A stretch of DNA of 64,000 bases, from the NCBI RefSeq assembly GCF_000381045.1, contig NZ_KB905729.1, positions 62,001 to 126,000 on the forward strand, written 5' to 3'. The DNA comes from Thermus scotoductus DSM 8553 (GTDB lineage: Bacteria; Deinococcota; Deinococci; Deinococcales; Thermaceae). Below, piece after piece: positions 39,335-45,181 of this stretch; within the stretch, counting starts at the first letter, position 1; every line of letters starts with the position of its first letter. Below the pieces are notes generated by a model, which made no database searches, was not told the origin of the DNA, and was given only the letters and a program-made list of their open reading frames with translations. A program made the position numbers and the translations under genes.

Positions 39335-40285
39335 ATGGGAAGCATGGATGGCCGGGGCCGGGTCTTTTACTTTGCCAGCTGGGCCGGGATGGCCCTTGGC
39401 CTTTTGCTCCAGGCGCAGAGATTCCCGCCCCAGGGCCTGGAAGTTTTGCTCTACGCTTTTTTCGTTCTCTGGGCCCTTTGGGCCCTGCGCCGGGGTCCTA
39501 AGGTGGCGCCCCGCCTTCTTCTCCATCTCCTTGGAGCCTATTTGCTGTTTGAACTATGGCGGGTGGGGGAGAACTGGCCCTTGGCGGGGTTCTTCACCCC
39601 GGCCCTTTACCTGCTGGCTGGGTTCGCCTATCCCCCCTGGTCCTTAGGGCACCTTTTGGGGGCCTTCTGGGGTGGGGTTTTGGTTCTTGCCCCCCTGGTT
39701 TTGGGGCGCAACCTGGATTTCTGGCCTCATTTTGCCGTGAGCCAGGTTATTCTCTTAAGCCTTACCTTTCTCCTGGCCCGCTTCCGCGAGGCCCACGGCC
39801 AGATGCGCTTCTGGAAGGAACAGGCCCTCACGGATCCCCTAACCGGTCTCCTCAACAGGAGGGCCTTGGAGATGGCCTTAGAAAGGGAGGCCGCCCGGGT
39901 GGAGCGGGGGGAGAGGCCCTTCAGCCTGGTGCTTGTGGACCTGGACGACTTTAAACGGGTGAACGACACCCACGGCCACCAGGTGGGGGACCGGATCCTT
40001 AAGGAGGTGGCCCAGTACCTGGTGGCCCACGTGCGCCAGGGGGACCTGGTGGGGCGCTGGGGTGGGGAGGAGTTTGCCGTTATCCTTCCCCGCACCGAGG
40101 GGAAGGAGGCGCTCCAGGTGGCGGACAGGCTGAGGGAAGGCCTGAAGACCTTGGGGATCACCGCAAGCTTTGGGGTGGCGGTGTATGGGGGTGATCCCAG
40201 GGATCTCTTCCAAAGGGCGGACCGAGCCCTTTACCAGGCTAAGGGCTCGGGAAAGAACCAGGTGAGGCTGGATTCGGGTTCTTAG
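39335..40285 (+). CDS. Membrane diguanylate cyclase (GGDEF)
   Basis: 316 aa. Residues 1-145 contain about five transmembrane helices. A GGDEF domain follows: DPLTGLLNRRALE, LVDLDDFKRVND and GRWGGEEFAVILPR. GGEEF is an active-site variant compatible with c-di-GMP synthesis. An inhibitory I-site RxxD (RQGD) sits five residues before it, so product inhibition is expected. The ATG at 39335 is used; ATG 39344 is also possible. Confidence 0.88.
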   Translation: MGSMDGRGRVFYFASWAGMALGLLLQAQRFPPQGLEVLLYAFFVLWALWALRRGPKVAPRLLLHLLGAYLLFELWRVGENWPLAGFFTPALYLLAGFAYPPWSLGHLLGAFWGGVLVLAPLVLGRNLDFWPHFAVSQVILLSLTFLLARFREAHGQMRFWKEQALTDPLTGLLNRRALEMALEREAARVERGERPFSLVLVDLDDFKRVNDTHGHQVGDRILKEVAQYLVAHVRQGDLVGRWGGEEFAVILPRTEGKEALQVADRLREGLKTLGITASFGVAVYGGDPRDLFQRADRALYQAKGSGKNQVRLDSGS

Positions 40286-40299
40286 AGGGGGAGCCGGTT

Positions 40300-41379
40300 T
40301 CAGGAAACCCGGTACCCTACTCGGGAGAGGACTTCCCGGGCCCTTTCCCTTTCCTCCCGGCTGGCGAAGCCTAAGCGGATGGCCCCGGCCTCCTCCCGGA
40401 TGGTGAGGACCTCGATGTCCTTGATGTTGACCCCGGCCTCCCCCAAGGCGGTGGCGATCCTGGCGATCTGGCCGGGCCGGTCGGGCACCTGGACCACCAG
40501 GTCGTGCATCTCGGGGAGCAGGCTTCGGCGCACGATGGGCAGGCTGTCCCGGGTGCGCTTGGCCTCCTCCGCCACCCGTAGGAGAACCTCGGGCTGGTCC
40601 AAAAACCCTTCCAGCTCCAAGAGCACCCCTCGTAGCTCTTCAATGGCTTCCTTGAGGGCTTCCTTGTTCTCCACCACCATGTCCCGGCTCATCCGGGGAG
40701 ACCCTGAGGCCACCCGGGTGAGGTCGCGAAACCCCCCGGCCGCCAAGAACATCAGGAGGTCCCGGTGGGGGCTATGGGCCACCAGGCGGTTTAGGGCCAC
40801 GGCCAAAAGATAGGGCAGGTGGGAGATGCGGGCCACCAAGCGGTCGTGAAGCTCCGGGGGGATTTCCAAGGGGTAGGCTCCCAAGGCCTCCACCAGCTTC
40901 TTAATCCCTTCGCGCGCCTTAGGGCTGGTCCGTGGCGTAGGGGTTAAAACCCAGATGGCGTTGTGCAGAAGGCCCGCGTGGGCGTTTTCCACCCCGGCCC
41001 GCTCGCTTCCCGCCATGGGGTGGCTTCCCAGGAAGTGGGGCAGGATGCCCTCGAGGTCCCCCACCACCCGGGCCTTCACGCTGCCCACATCGGTCCAGAG
41101 GCTATCGGGGTGGGCTAAGGGAGCCAGCCTCCTGCCCAGGTCCACCAGGGCTCCCACAGGGGCCGCCAGGATGCCCAGCTCCAGCTCCCCCACCCAAGGG
41201 CCAAGCTGGGGGTGCACCCGGTCGGCTACCCCCAGGAAGAGGGCCTTCTCCAAGGCTTCGGGGTCCTGGTCGTAGGCGTGGATCTCCTCGGCCAGGAAGC
41301 GCTCCTTTAGGCCCAGGGCCACGCTTCCCCCCAGAAGGCCCACCCCGAAGATGCCCACCTTGCCAAAAAGCGGTTTCAT
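40300..41379 (-). CDS. tyrA: Prephenate dehydrogenase with ACT domain
   Basis: Converts prephenate to 4-hydroxyphenylpyruvate in tyrosine synthesis. 359 aa. The Rossmann motif is GIFGVGLLGGSVALGL (about 9-24); GSHPMAGSERAG (about 118-129) holds the catalytic His region and HDRLVARISHLPYLLAVAL the helical domain. A C-terminal ACT domain (PDRPGQIARIATALGEAGV) should bind an amino-acid effector. The ATG overlaps the aroF stop by 4 bp, so both genes are under the aroF attenuator. Confidence 0.95.
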   Translation of the reverse strand: MKPLFGKVGIFGVGLLGGSVALGLKERFLAEEIHAYDQDPEALEKALFLGVADRVHPQLGPWVGELELGILAAPVGALVDLGRRLAPLAHPDSLWTDVGSVKARVVGDLEGILPHFLGSHPMAGSERAGVENAHAGLLHNAIWVLTPTPRTSPKAREGIKKLVEALGAYPLEIPPELHDRLVARISHLPYLLAVALNRLVAHSPHRDLLMFLAAGGFRDLTRVASGSPRMSRDMVVENKEALKEAIEELRGVLLELEGFLDQPEVLLRVAEEAKRTRDSLPIVRRSLLPEMHDLVVQVPDRPGQIARIATALGEAGVNIKDIEVLTIREEAGAIRLGFASREERERAREVLSRVGYRVS

Positions 41380-42410
41380 CCCAAGACGGGTGCGGAGAGG
41401 GTCTTGTCCAGGGCTTCCAAAAGCCGCTTAGCCTTTTGCATCAGCTCGGCGAACTCGTGCTCGTAGAGCTGCTGGGCTGCGTCGGAAAGGGCTTTTTCCG
41501 GCTCGGGGTGGGTTTCCACGATGAGGCCATCCGCCCCTGCCGCAAGCCCCGCCAGGGCCAAGGGGATGACCCACTCCCGCTTGCCTGCGGGGTGGGAGGG
41601 ATCCACCCATACGGGGAGGTGGGTGAAGCTTTTGAGCACGGGCACCGCCGAGACATCCAGGGTGAAGCGGGTGGTCTTCTCAAAGGTGCGGATCCCCCGC
41701 TCTACCAGGATCACCTGCATGTTGCCCCGGGAGAGGATGTACTCGGCGCTCATTAAGAACTCTTCCAGGGTCATGCTCATACCCCGCTTGAGGAGGACGG
41801 GCTTTTTCGCCTCGCCCACCGCCTGGAGGAGGGCGAAGTTTTGGGCGTTACGGGCCCCGATCTGCAGGGCGTCGGCATACTCCGCCACCAGTTCCACCTG
41901 CTCCGGGGAGAGGACCTCGGTGACCACGGGAAGCCCCGTCTCCCGCCGGGCCTCCGCCAGGATCTTGAGCCCCTCCAGGCCCAGCCCTTGGAAGGCGTAG
42001 GGGCTGGTCCTGGGCTTGAAGGCCCCGCCCCTCAGCATCCCCGCCCCGTGGGCCTTCACGTAGCGGGCGGCTTTAAGGGTCTGCTCCCGGGACTCCACCC
42101 CACAGGGCCCTGCGGCGATCAGCACATGGCCTCCCCCCGTCTTGCACGTGGGGAACTCCAAGACGGTGGGGAAGGGCTGGACCTCGAGGCTCGCCAGCTT
42201 GTAGGGCTTGGAGATGGGGATCACCTCCGCCACCCCGGGCAGGGCGCGGAAGTGCTCCATGAGCTCCGGGGTAGGCCCCCGGCCGATGGCCCCCACCAGG
42301 GTGGTCTCCACTCCCCGGGAGACGTGGGGCCGGTAGCCCACCTTCTCAATTTCCCGCACCACCTCTTCTAACTCCGCTTCCGTGTGTCCCCGCTTCATCA
42401 CGATGAGCAT
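41376..42410 (-). CDS. aroF: DAHP synthase with regulatory ferredoxin-like domain
   Basis: First step of the shikimate pathway, from erythrose 4-phosphate and phosphoenolpyruvate. 344 aa of the AroA-beta type. Residues 1-70 are the ferredoxin-like domain (MLIVMKRGHTEAELEEVV), which in the Thermotoga homologue mediates aromatic feedback inhibition. The barrel shows AAGPCGVESREQ, GGAFKPRTSPYAFQGLG, LLKRGM and WVDPSHPAGKR. SD AGGAGGG is 5 nt before the ATG and directly follows the attenuator. The gene is therefore likely controlled both at enzyme and at transcript level. Confidence 0.96.
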   Translation of the reverse strand: MLIVMKRGHTEAELEEVVREIEKVGYRPHVSRGVETTLVGAIGRGPTPELMEHFRALPGVAEVIPISKPYKLASLEVQPFPTVLEFPTCKTGGGHVLIAAGPCGVESREQTLKAARYVKAHGAGMLRGGAFKPRTSPYAFQGLGLEGLKILAEARRETGLPVVTEVLSPEQVELVAEYADALQIGARNAQNFALLQAVGEAKKPVLLKRGMSMTLEEFLMSAEYILSRGNMQVILVERGIRTFEKTTRFTLDVSAVPVLKSFTHLPVWVDPSHPAGKREWVIPLALAGLAAGADGLIVETHPEPEKALSDAAQQLYEHEFAELMQKAKRLLEALDKTLSAPVLG

Positions 42411-42430
42411 CCTTCCCTCCTAAAAGCCTT

Positions 42431-42456
42431 GGGCGCCCCCTTTTTTGGGGGCGCCC
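42431..42456 (-). terminator. Attenuator terminator (segments 3:4)
   Basis: Read on the minus strand: GGGCGCCCCC, loop AAAAAA, GGGGGCGCCC, then AAGGCTTTTA running straight into the aroF ribosome site. A 10-bp GC stem with a short U-run. Confidence 0.85.
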
Positions 42457-42472
42457 TTCTTGCGGAAAAACC

Positions 42473-42538
42473 CTATGCGGACCGCAGGGCGCCCCCGGCG
42501 GGATAATAAAAGCCGAAGTAGCGCCCTAGGGTCCGCAT
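42473..42538 (-). CDS. aro leader peptide
   Basis: A 21-codon reading frame, ATG at 42538 to TAG at 42473-42475, too short for ordinary gene calling. Codons 7-12 read Tyr-Phe-Gly-Phe-Tyr-Tyr (TAC TTC GGC TTT TAT TAT): five aromatic residues in six. The remaining sequence is simple (Met-Arg-Thr-Leu-Gly-Arg before; Pro-Ala-Gly-Gly-Ala-Leu-Arg-Ser-Ala after). The ATG lies about 10 nt after the -10 box, so the leader is translated from an almost leaderless 5' end. It senses charged tRNA-Phe and tRNA-Tyr by attenuation. Confidence 0.85.
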   Translation of the reverse strand: MRTLGRYFGFYYPAGGALRSA

Positions 42539-42548
42539 ATTGCCTCCA

Positions 42549-42577
42549 AGCATAGGGGAGGGGGGAAGACCTGTCAA
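42549..42577 (-). promoter_or_regulatory. aroF-tyrA promoter
   Basis: Minus strand: consensus -35 TTGACA (42572-42577), 17-bp spacer, -10 TATGCT (42549-42554). Start of transcription about 42542, three or four bases before the leader peptide ATG. Confidence 0.8.
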
Positions 42578-42630
42578 GAGGGGCAGAGCGGGGACCGAAA
42601 GGCCCTTGCCCCGCGGGTTATTCCCTTTAG

Positions 42631-43012
42631 AGAAAAGAGGGGGTGTGGGGGAGCTATAATCCCCCGGTTTCCAAGATAGCCCTCAAGATACGCTAACGCG
42701 TGACACAGGCTGACCAAACCGGGGATACATGGACTCCCCCACGTCCACCACAGGTGGACACGGATTTGGTACAATGTTCTTGGGGACAAAGTTCCCCGTG
42801 GACCTTGAAACCTGCAAAAACGGGTTCCATCGGGTAGTCCGATGGGTAAAACTCCAAACGAACACCCGTGGCAGAGCCAGAAGCATTGCGCTCGCCTGCC
42901 GAGGAGTCAAGGTCTTTCTGGGCCTGGACGGGGCCTTCGGGGAAAACCCCGCGTGCTTTCCCGCAGGGAAACACCCCGAGAAGCCCCGGACTTTAGTCCG
43001 GGGAGTCGTCAC
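42631..43012 (+). mobile_element. Non-autonomous IS200/IS605-like element, copy B
   Basis: About 382 bp, same orientation and nearly the same sequence as 14162-14552. It has the same TTTAG left flank (42626-42630), the same TATAAT hairpin at the left, and the same CCCCGGAC-TTTA-GTCCGGGG right-end hairpin and TCAC terminus (43009-43012). Private inserts are a 21-nt segment near 42685-42705 and a 24-nt segment near 42950-42973 with the hairpin TTTCCC-GCA-GGGAAA. Its last four bases include the stop codon of the VOC gene. No transposase or TnpB frame is present. Confidence 0.7.
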
Positions 43013-43767
43013 AAGCTGGCCGTAAGGCGCATTTGTGCTCCCGTGGGGTCTTGCAGCTCCATCGTCCGGCCCCAGGGGTCCAGGAGCGTGTAGCCGAGGA
43101 GTCCCGTGGACTCTGGCGGAGCCCTTCGCTTTCCTGCCCAGACGTTGGCCCCCACGTGGTGGTGGTAGCCATCCCAGGCGAAAAAGAGGGCCCCGGGGTA
43201 GGTGCGCAGGGTGACCTCCATGCCCAGGTGGTTGGCAAAAAGGGCCTCGGCCTCCTTGAGGTCTTCCACATGTAGGTGCAGATGGCCGAGGAGGGTTTCG
43301 GGTGGAAGGGAGCTGGGTTTTGGGGCTTGGGAAAGGAGCCCTTCCAGGTTCAAGGGGGCGGTGAACATAAGGGGTTCGGAGGGCCAGGCCCCTTGGGGCC
43401 GGTCCCAGTAGAGCTCGAGGCCATTCCCCTCAGGATCGCGAAAGTAAAGGGCCTCGGAAACCCCGTGGTCTGCTGCTCCCTCGAAGTAGGCCCCAGCTTG
43501 GAGGAGCCTTTGGGTGACCCCGGCCAAGGCCCTGCGGTCGGGGAGGAGGAGGGCGAAGTGGTAAAGGCCCACCGAGGGATAGGGCCTCAGGGGAGCTTCA
43601 GGAGCATGGACCAGCTCCAGGTGAAACCCCTGGCCTCTCGGGTAAAGGCGGTAGCGGGGTGGGTCGGCCTCCAGCCTCAGGCCCAGGAGGCCCTGGTAGA
43701 AGGAGAGGGCCGCCTCGAGGTCCCTCACCCTTAGGGTGAGGGCCAAAAGCCGCGGGGGAAAGGCCAT
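43009..43767 (-). CDS. VOC-family dioxygenase/glyoxalase-like protein
   Basis: 252 aa with two vicinal-oxygen-chelate modules, laid out like CatE-type catechol 2,3-dioxygenases. LALTLRVRDLEAALSFYQGLLGL (about 8-30) starts module 1, and LGHLHLHVEDLKEAEALFANHLGM starts module 2; HFALLLPD, FRDPEGNGLELYWDRP and HHVGANVWAG supply metal and fold residues. The TGA stop is read from the TCAC end of mobile element copy B, so the C-terminus may have been altered by insertion. Co-transcribed with the YceI gene (TAATG overlap). Confidence 0.82.
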   Translation of the reverse strand: MAFPPRLLALTLRVRDLEAALSFYQGLLGLRLEADPPRYRLYPRGQGFHLELVHAPEAPLRPYPSVGLYHFALLLPDRRALAGVTQRLLQAGAYFEGAADHGVSEALYFRDPEGNGLELYWDRPQGAWPSEPLMFTAPLNLEGLLSQAPKPSSLPPETLLGHLHLHVEDLKEAEALFANHLGMEVTLRTYPGALFFAWDGYHHHVGANVWAGKRRAPPESTGLLGYTLLDPWGRTMELQDPTGAQMRLTASL

Positions 43768-44303
43768 TACCCGGCCACCGCCTCCTGCGCCTTGACCGCC
43801 TCGGTGTCCACGCTGAAGCGCACTTCCTCGCCCACCAGTACCCCGCCCATCTCCAGGGGCATGTTCCAGGTGAGGCCGAAGTCCTTGCGGTTCAGCTTTC
43901 CTTCAAAATGGGCGGCGATGCGTTCGTTGCCCCAGGGGTCCTTGACTGGGCCATGGGTTTCCACCTCGAAGGAGAGGGGCCGGGTGATGCCCCGGATGGT
44001 TACCTCCCCCTCCACCCTGTACCGCCCCTCGCCCAAGGGGGTAATCCTCTCGCTTCGGAAGACGATCTCGGGGTAGCGCTCCACATCCAGGAAGTCGGGG
44101 GAACGCAGGTGGTTGTCCCGGTCGGGCACCCCGGTGTGGATGCTTTTCGCATCCAGCCGGGCCTCCACCTTAAGGGGCTTCCCGGTTTCGTCCGTCTCCA
44201 CGTAACCCTCTTTGAGGTTTAAGGTGCCCTTGACCGTGGCGATCATCATATGCCGCACGGCGAACTCGATGCTGGTGTGGGCTGGGTCTAGGTTCCAACG
44301 CAT
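43767..44303 (-). CDS. YceI-like polyisoprenoid-binding protein
   Basis: 178 aa lipocalin-like beta-barrel family. WNLDPAHTSIEFAVRHMMI (2-20), the SIHTGVPDRDNHLRSPDFLD loop (about 51-70) and the ITGxTRP-like GITRPLSFEVE are typical. A T. thermophilus family member was crystallised with a polyisoprenoid. No signal peptide is seen, so it acts in the cytoplasm. AAGGAGGTCAAAACATG fixes the start at 44303. The gene lies beside mqnA/mqnE, so a role with isoprenoid quinones is possible (inference). Confidence 0.88.
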   Translation of the reverse strand: MRWNLDPAHTSIEFAVRHMMIATVKGTLNLKEGYVETDETGKPLKVEARLDAKSIHTGVPDRDNHLRSPDFLDVERYPEIVFRSERITPLGEGRYRVEGEVTIRGITRPLSFEVETHGPVKDPWGNERIAAHFEGKLNRKDFGLTWNMPLEMGGVLVGEEVRFSVDTEAVKAQEAVAG

Positions 44304-44317
44304 GTTTTGACCTCCTT

Positions 44318-44331
44318 GGGTCCAAGGACCC
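44318..44331. promoter_or_regulatory. 14-bp palindrome at the YceI transcription start
   Basis: GGGTCC-AA-GGACCC, a perfect palindrome just downstream of the -10 box and 14 bp before the ATG. Candidate operator. Confidence 0.45.
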
Positions 44332-44337
44332 AGTACT

Positions 44338-44366
44338 AGGCTACTCAGGGTGCTATATAAAGTCAA
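44338..44366 (-). promoter_or_regulatory. Promoter of the YceI-VOC operon
   Basis: Minus strand: -35 TTGACT (44361-44366), 17-bp spacer, -10 TAGCCT (44338-44343). It gives a real leader of about 28 nt with a strong SD, unlike many leaderless genes here. Confidence 0.65.
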
Positions 44367-44369
44367 GCA

Positions 44370-45181
44370 CTATGCGGGATAGTATGTAGGGGCAAAGGGA
44401 AGGCCCAAAGCGTCGGCGAAAGCCTTTAGCCCCAGGCGGTCGGGCTCCTCCAGGTGGTAGCGGAAGTTCCAAAGGTAGTGCTCCATGAGCACAGGGTGGA
44501 TTCCAAGCCGCTTGGCCTCGGCTTCCGCTACTTCTCCCAGCCGGCTAAGCCCCTGGCGCCGGGCCTTTCTCAGGGCTTGCACCAACTTTAAGGGAGGAGG
44601 GTTTTCCCTGCGGTAGGCCCAGACGGCGAAGACGAAGGGCAGCCGGGTGCGTTCAAACCAGAGCATGGAGAGGTCCACCACCTCTACCTCCCCAAAGCGG
44701 GTGGGAAGGGCATGGGGGGTCTCAGGGAGATGGTCTAGGAGGCTGGCGTAGGCCTGGATGGCTTTGTCGCCGATGAGGAGGACCCCGTCGTACTCCTTAA
44801 GGAGCTCCAGTCCCCCTTCCTTGGCCTCGTACTGGGGAAAAACCCCCTGTTCCCCAAGGAGGAGCTTTAGGAGCTCCACGCTGGTGGCGCTTTCCGTGGT
44901 GAGGGCAATGCGCTTCAGGTCCGCGGGCTTCCCCTTAAGAAACAAGTTAACCGAGTACACCCGTCCCAGGACGGCCACGGAAAAGTCGGGGAGAAGCCCT
45001 AGCTCCTCCTGGTGCTCCAGGTAAAAGTAGCTGGAAACCAGGGAAAGCCCCACCTCTCCCGAGAGCACCATCCGGTTGAGCTCTGCGGGAACCCCATAGC
45101 AAAGCCGCCAGCCATCGGGCTCCAGAAACTGGTAGAGGGGGGCGGTGTTGGCGTAGGGGGGAACCCCCAGGGCGTAGGCCA

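Follow-up and report, generated by a model that had tools for sequence, protein, structure and literature searches.

How is the aroF-tyrA operon of Thermus scotoductus DSM 8553 controlled, given that a short reading frame with clustered Phe and Tyr codons and a series of complementary arms stand between its promoter and aroF? The window, that is, the whole stretch of 64,000 nucleotides analyzed, carries both genes on its minus strand (Table 1). The aroF product scores 486 bits against NF006421 (cutoff, 335) and also matches PF00793 and PF18152, and the tyrA start overlaps the aroF end by 4 nt. NCBIfam and Pfam agree with the assignment of the two genes to DAHP synthase and prephenate dehydrogenase made in a preliminary description of this DNA, and the biosynthetic operon expected downstream of an attenuator is in place. 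A scan of positions 40000 to 45000 against Rfam returned nothing at the gathering score, with no known leader or riboswitch family matched. On the evidence below, we judge the aroF attenuator to be real, conserved, and very probably functional, and we consider it very likely that charged tRNA-Phe and tRNA-Tyr control aroF-tyrA through ribosome-mediated transcription attenuation.

The aroF protein served as query against 27 Thermus genomes and, in a second step, against 111 genomes of the order; searches at the order, class, and phylum levels cover the same 111 genomes. The 27 Thermus loci and one from a sister genus (L059) make up 28 Thermus-type loci, which together with 17 loci of Meiothermus/Calidithermus give 45 Thermaceae loci. 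The TTGACA-17-TATGCT promoter is the sole sigma-70-like match in 5 kb, where 0.6 would be expected by chance, and its hexamers by themselves are therefore weak proof. Promoters of the class TTGAC[AG]-17/18-TAnnnT are present at all 45 Thermaceae aroF loci, and at every one of them the leader ATG lies 8 to 11 nt past the -10 (TAnnnT) box. From this spacing, the 5' UTR of the aroF leader mRNA is predicted to be 0 to 4 nt long, making the message leaderless or almost so. A well-supported attenuator in a thermophile, on an mRNA starting at or next to its AUG, would bear on the coupling of translation and transcription of leaderless mRNAs.

Table 1. Features of the aroF-tyrA leader region, in window positions
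Feature	Position	Strand	Basis
Promoter: -35 TTGACA, 17-nt spacer, -10 TATGCT	42549..42577	minus	sequence and Thermaceae comparison
Predicted transcription start region, ~7 nt after -10	42539..42542	minus	inferred from -10 spacing
Leader peptide ORF, 21 codons, MRTLGRYFGFYYPAGGALRSA then stop	42473..42538	minus	sequence; common to 28/28 Thermus-type genomes
Control codons 7-12, Tyr Phe Gly Phe Tyr Tyr (TAC TTC GGC TTT TAT TAT)	42503..42520	minus	codon conservation
Segment 1, start-codon side of 1:2 hairpin	42521..42539	minus	fold of L001; pair counts; recodings
Segment 2, part pairing with segment 1, on the stop-codon side of 1:2	42474..42492	minus	fold, pair counts
Segment 2, part pairing with segment 3, GGGGGCGCCC with TGCGG extension, antiterminator 5' arm	42482..42496	minus	fold
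Segment 3, CCGCA-agaa-GGGCGCCCCC, antiterminator 3' arm	42447..42465	minus	sequence, fold
Segment 3 core GGGCGCCCCC, doubling as terminator 5' arm	42447..42456	minus	sequence, fold
Segment 4, GGGGGCGCCC, terminator 3' arm	42431..42440	minus	stem common to 28 Thermus-type loci
Terminator tail AAGGCUUUU, with no more than 4 U after the spacer	42422..42430	minus	sequence
aroF Shine-Dalgarno GGAGG	42416..42420	minus	sequence
aroF, DAHP (3-deoxy-7-phosphoheptulonate) synthase, N-terminal ferredoxin-like regulatory domain	41376..42410	minus	NF006421, PF00793, PF18152
tyrA, prephenate dehydrogenase, C-terminal ACT domain	40300..41379	minus	PF02153, PF20463, PF01842 above cutoff

The preliminary description had proposed the promoter, the 21-codon leader with its six control codons, pairing between the start-codon and stop-codon regions, a leader word exactly complementary to the 5' arm of a terminator, and four segments able to pair as 1:2, 2:3, and 3:4; all of these are present. 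The start-codon and stop-codon regions pair at 18 of 19 positions. The leader contains a word, GGGGGCGCCC (42496-42487), that is exactly complementary to GGGCGCCCCC (42456-42447), the 5' arm of the last hairpin. This hairpin reads GGGCGCCCCC-A6-GGGGGCGCCC at 42456-42431 and is followed by AAGGCTTTTAGGAGGGAAGG and then by the aroF start at 42410. The 2:3 core of 10 bp is paired in 100% of cells, and the three mutually exclusive helices are positioned such that segment 2 would be freed by ribosome stalling.

A cluster of codons for the products of the pathway, in a frame predicted to be translated, occurs at 45/45 loci and is of either the FGFYYP or the GYFYWP type. In the Thermus-type leaders, codon 8 is aromatic, codon 10 is TTT, and codon 11 encodes Tyr in 28/28, and codon 12 encodes Tyr in 23/28. 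Codons 8, 10, 11, and 13 of the Thermus leader are near-invariant, whereas codons 3, 4, 7, and 20 drift; the invariant residues are Phe10, Tyr11, Pro13, Gly16, Ala17, and Leu18. The Meiothermus leaders mostly read ...FFGYFYWP..PVR[SLP][AV] before the stop codon. Each type marks its locus: the FGFYYP DNA word is single copy in every genome having it and always lies at the aroF leader (23/23), as does the GYFYWP word in Meiothermus/Calidithermus genomes (15/15). Tyr is written TAT at 47 of 71 positions in Thermus leaders, whereas eight genes of the window instead prefer TAC (58/70).

The four-segment geometry fits a choice between stalling at the Phe/Tyr codons and completion at the stop codon, and within this scheme we infer the start site, the efficiency of termination, and the response to tRNA charging. 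Transcription would begin on the leader AUG or a few bases upstream of it, and translation of the leader would follow immediately. As long as charged tRNA-Phe and tRNA-Tyr are plentiful, the ribosome would get to the stop codon and cover segment 2, leaving segment 3 free to pair with segment 4 and end transcription just before the aroF ribosome-binding site. With either one short, the ribosome would stall at codons 7 to 12 and cover segment 1, and segment 2 would capture segment 3 before segment 4 is made, allowing read-through into aroF-tyrA.

Folding predicts this classical switch at all 45 Thermaceae loci. The model places the ribosome edge 15 nt beyond the first P-site base, a textbook assumption, and the cotranscriptional calculation ends the RNA before segment 4 and was run at 37 and 65°C. 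A ribosome at the stop codon leaves segment 3 free (0.0) in 45/45 at both temperatures; when one of the main Phe/Tyr codons occupies the A site, segment 3 is held by segment 2 at 0.75 to 1.0; and at the last aromatic codon the hold is ~0.6 to 0.7, with 0.3 in L072. When the whole leader, segment 4 included, is folded at equilibrium, 3:4 wins in most states, often even with a stalled ribosome. Since 3:4 wins at equilibrium in nearly all states, only the cotranscriptional calculation discriminates them, and the decision of the switch must therefore be kinetic, as in known attenuators.

The 1:2 pairing of the window's leader is better than 500/500 synonymous recodings and its 2:3 pairing better than 474/500, with 26/500 as good; for 1:2, 0/500 recodings were as good in both L001 and L078. 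Across 12 leaders tested, recoding weakens 1:2 in 480 to 500 and 2:3 in 448 to 497 of 500 trials, and recodings as good for 2:3 number 3 to 52 of 500, being under 25/500 in 8 of the 12 leaders. The Thermus 2:3 pairing is only marginal against recodings because its codons are GC-rich.

Does the leader accompany this aroF wherever it is found? It stands at the same place in 28/28 Thermus-type and 17/17 Meiothermus/Calidithermus loci, with its position, frame, and aromatic core kept in all 45. We looked for loci that keep aroF and have lost the leader frame or the arms, the case that would speak against the preliminary description; every one of the 45 Thermaceae genomes with this aroF keeps both. 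The arms themselves are unrelated between genera, being GGGGGCGCCC/GGGCGCCCCC/GGGGGCGCCC in Thermus versus CCCCGUGAGG/CCUUCCGGGG/CCCCGGAAG in Meiothermus, and the 1:2 arms are likewise rewritten. The 1:2, 2:3, and 3:4 pairings and the Phe/Tyr codons all survive this replacement, which serves as a clean compensatory experiment done by nature. What the sequences show directly are the parts and how well they are conserved, the exclusive pairings, and the replacement between genera. Within Thermus, neither 1:2 nor 2:3 covaries beyond shuffles on any measure, since these helices show hardly any variation (the 2:3 core and the 3:4 stems are all but fixed). The expectation that aligned Thermus arms and aromatic codons would covary is thus borne out only in part, by pairings kept across genera whose arms were replaced; as judged from these alignments, comparative support for the helices comes from the between-genus comparison and not from within Thermus.

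In G063, G066, and G068 of the Meiothermus genus, and in G049 and G050, there is no full-length match to this aroF ortholog; only a second, chorismate-mutase-type DAHP synthase scores in these genomes, and the leader word is absent too.

A further question is what stands before aroF in the sister families f4 and f5 (L060-L071, L085-L112). Here, a different, leaderless Tyr uORF of the MTRPRSGGGAVDDGYGY type precedes aroF, with the core GG[GD]A[MV][DE]DGYGY. At 25/26 f4/f5 loci, a start codon 6 to 10 nt after the -10 box is in frame with GG[GD]A[MV][DE]DGY(G/PG/D)Y, the start-to-core distances being 30, 33, 39, 45, 51, and 123 nt and that of the exception, L107, 28 nt; the binomial figure of 2e-11 presumes more independence than these related genomes have. 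The exact core pattern has 15 matches in the 111 genomes, 13 before aroF and 2 before tyrS. In the latter two genomes (G096 and G097; L128:1501-1640 and L129, reverse strand), a leader of the GGAGGTGGTGCTATGGACGATGGCTATGGTTAT type lies before tyrS, the gene for tyrosyl-tRNA synthetase (TIGR00234, 341 bits for the L128 protein), its start codon 7 nt after the -10 box, and the search gave no full-length ortholog of this aroF in either genome. The tyrS placement of the core is independent evidence for tyrosine as the input. No U-tract terminator was seen at the f4/f5 leaders, and the leader is degenerate or absent in the f5 genomes L099, L103, L104, L105, L106, L108, L109, L111, and L112; among the loci compared, only Thermaceae and f4 keep the leader throughout.

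It is possible, though we hold it tentatively, that Tyr (aromatic) leader-peptide control of DAHP synthase is phylum-wide and comes in two architectures: a near-leaderless classical attenuator in Thermaceae and, in the two sister families, a leaderless GG[GD]A[MV][DE]DGYGY uORF before aroF (before tyrS in two genomes) that works without an intrinsic terminator. If so, one lineage would have built the mechanism anew for an unchanged input. With members at both aroF and tyrS, the second leader type suggests that Tyr is sensed by an arrangement that we did not find described. The DNA of the f4/f5 core resembles a strong Shine-Dalgarno sequence plus a start codon within the frame. Pairing of the GGAGGTG core of f4 with the aroF start region was looked for by eye and was not consistent, and a match in G075 (L118) was judged to be chance.

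How would transcription end in Thermus? The 3:4 stem of 9 to 10 bp is GC only and the same in 28/28 Thermus-type loci, but after the hairpin come a 4- to 5-nt spacer and then only 4 to 5 U (tail at this locus, AAGGCUUUUAGGAGG), so that the hairpin appears to be a noncanonical terminator at which intrinsic termination may be weak. The terminator that the preliminary description placed right before the aroF Shine-Dalgarno sequence is thus upheld for its hairpin, which is in place, and not for a U-run directly after it. The spacer of ~4 to 5 nt before U4-5, the Tyr leaders of f4 and f5 that lack a U-tract terminator, and a C-rich spacer to aroF in several f5 genomes would all suit an alternative in which 3:4 is not an efficient intrinsic terminator and a stalled or released ribosome acts through Rho/NusG or a pause, with the hairpins as helpers. 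We regard this alternative as unlikely: an all-GC stem has been kept in 28 genomes, and Meiothermus/Calidithermus have a canonical U-tract terminator at the same place (CUUCCGGGG...CCCCGGAAG-U6 in Meiothermus). In addition, T-runs 3 to 6 nt past strong hairpins number 12 in 800 kb of one Thermus genome versus ~2.7 expected, as estimated from more distal offsets; this ~4-fold enrichment of hairpins followed by 3 to 6 nt and T4-5 indicates that the spaced form is not peculiar to aroF.

Translational coupling or reinitiation, in which the leader ORF supplies ribosomes to aroF without any control of transcription, follows an idea put forward together with a reported peak of leader ORFs near genes of the Deinococcus-Thermus group (PMC4833913). 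That peak lies at 10 to 11 nt, whereas the leader stop and the aroF start are 58 to 62 nt apart in Thermus and 67 to 177 nt apart in Meiothermus/Calidithermus; aroF also has a good Shine-Dalgarno sequence of its own, and the conserved exclusive hairpins and Phe/Tyr codons would be left unexplained, which makes this explanation highly improbable. We give equally little credence to nascent-peptide arrest, with the peptide in the exit tunnel sensing free Tyr or Phe. The conservation of the nonaromatic residues Pro13, Gly16, Ala17, and Leu18 in Thermus and of GG[GD]A[MV][DE]DGY in the sister families speaks for it, but the Thermus residues lie largely in segment 2 codons, where RNA pairing explains most of their conservation, and they are replaced in Meiothermus while the aromatic codons stay. 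Sequestration of the aroF Shine-Dalgarno sequence was rejected by inspection: ~20 nt separate the end of the 3:4 hairpin from the start codon, and none of the arms could pair with the Shine-Dalgarno sequence.

Two other spaced hairpins were seen ahead of genes in G008. At about position 7900 of L137, upstream of a leuA-like gene, GGCCCCCC-AATCT-GGGGGGCC is followed by TAGTGCGTTTTAGGGAGGGAGAAGATG, so that hairpin, spacer, T4, and Shine-Dalgarno sequence are laid out as at aroF; this site follows an upstream gene, and no leader ORF was seen there. On the reverse strand, upstream of a greA-like gene, CCAGCCCATGGCCATGGGCTGG is followed by TGCCCTTTTTGCACGGAGGG, which abuts the start codon; here, too, a gap separates hairpin and T-run.

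The preferred reading, attenuation by a translated aromatic leader, has well-known counterparts in the pheA (pheL) and trp (trpL) attenuators of Escherichia coli, which have a leader with control codons, a 2:3 antiterminator, and a 3:4 terminator. The Thermus aroF leader shares this four-segment logic but is predicted to have hardly any 5' UTR; in addition, its start codon lies within segment 1, and its short U-tract stands away from the hairpin. Closer in its target is the experimentally supported aroR-aroF attenuator of Corynebacterium glutamicum (Neshat et al. 2014), which, as summarized in PMC11802643 and PMC4046766, has, as in Thermus, a leader peptide before a DAHP synthase operon; this leader contains Phe-Tyr-Phe, and read-through rises on Phe limitation. 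The attenuator belongs to a different phylum, and its leader is compared here only by that description. The uORFC-13-1 motif, predicted before aroF in Acholeplasma and environmental DNA only, likewise combines a Phe-containing uORF and a terminator before a DAHP synthase gene (PMC8632094). About 40% of genes in the present phylum are predicted to be leaderless (PMC3160421), and a leaderless attenuator has precedent, since the leader peptide of C. glutamicum ilvBNC is formed without a ribosome-binding site according to a paper cited in PMC4046766.

The preliminary description knew of no account in Thermus, which needs amending: PMC1173090 (Table 7, 2005) lists, from the Merino database, a putative attenuator for the aroAIbeta-tyrA operon of Thermus thermophilus, which is the same operon in the same genus, with the same proposed type of control. 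The passages found there give it as a bare prediction, with no leader peptide, segments, or comparative evidence. Neither the leader peptide nor the arm replacement nor the sister leader type turned up in our literature search, which took in few subscription journals, so that their absence is weak evidence. The anatomy of the aroF-tyrA switch and its distribution in the phylum appear not to have been described, and the proposed two-architecture family is more novel than the Thermaceae attenuator itself. In further support of attenuation at aroF, the source genome also carries a trp-type attenuator with a U5 terminator upstream of trpE (L131:822-930), in which the leader MSPLPALWWPG with its stop codon is followed by CCCCGGGGCTAGGCCCCGGGGTTTTTG.
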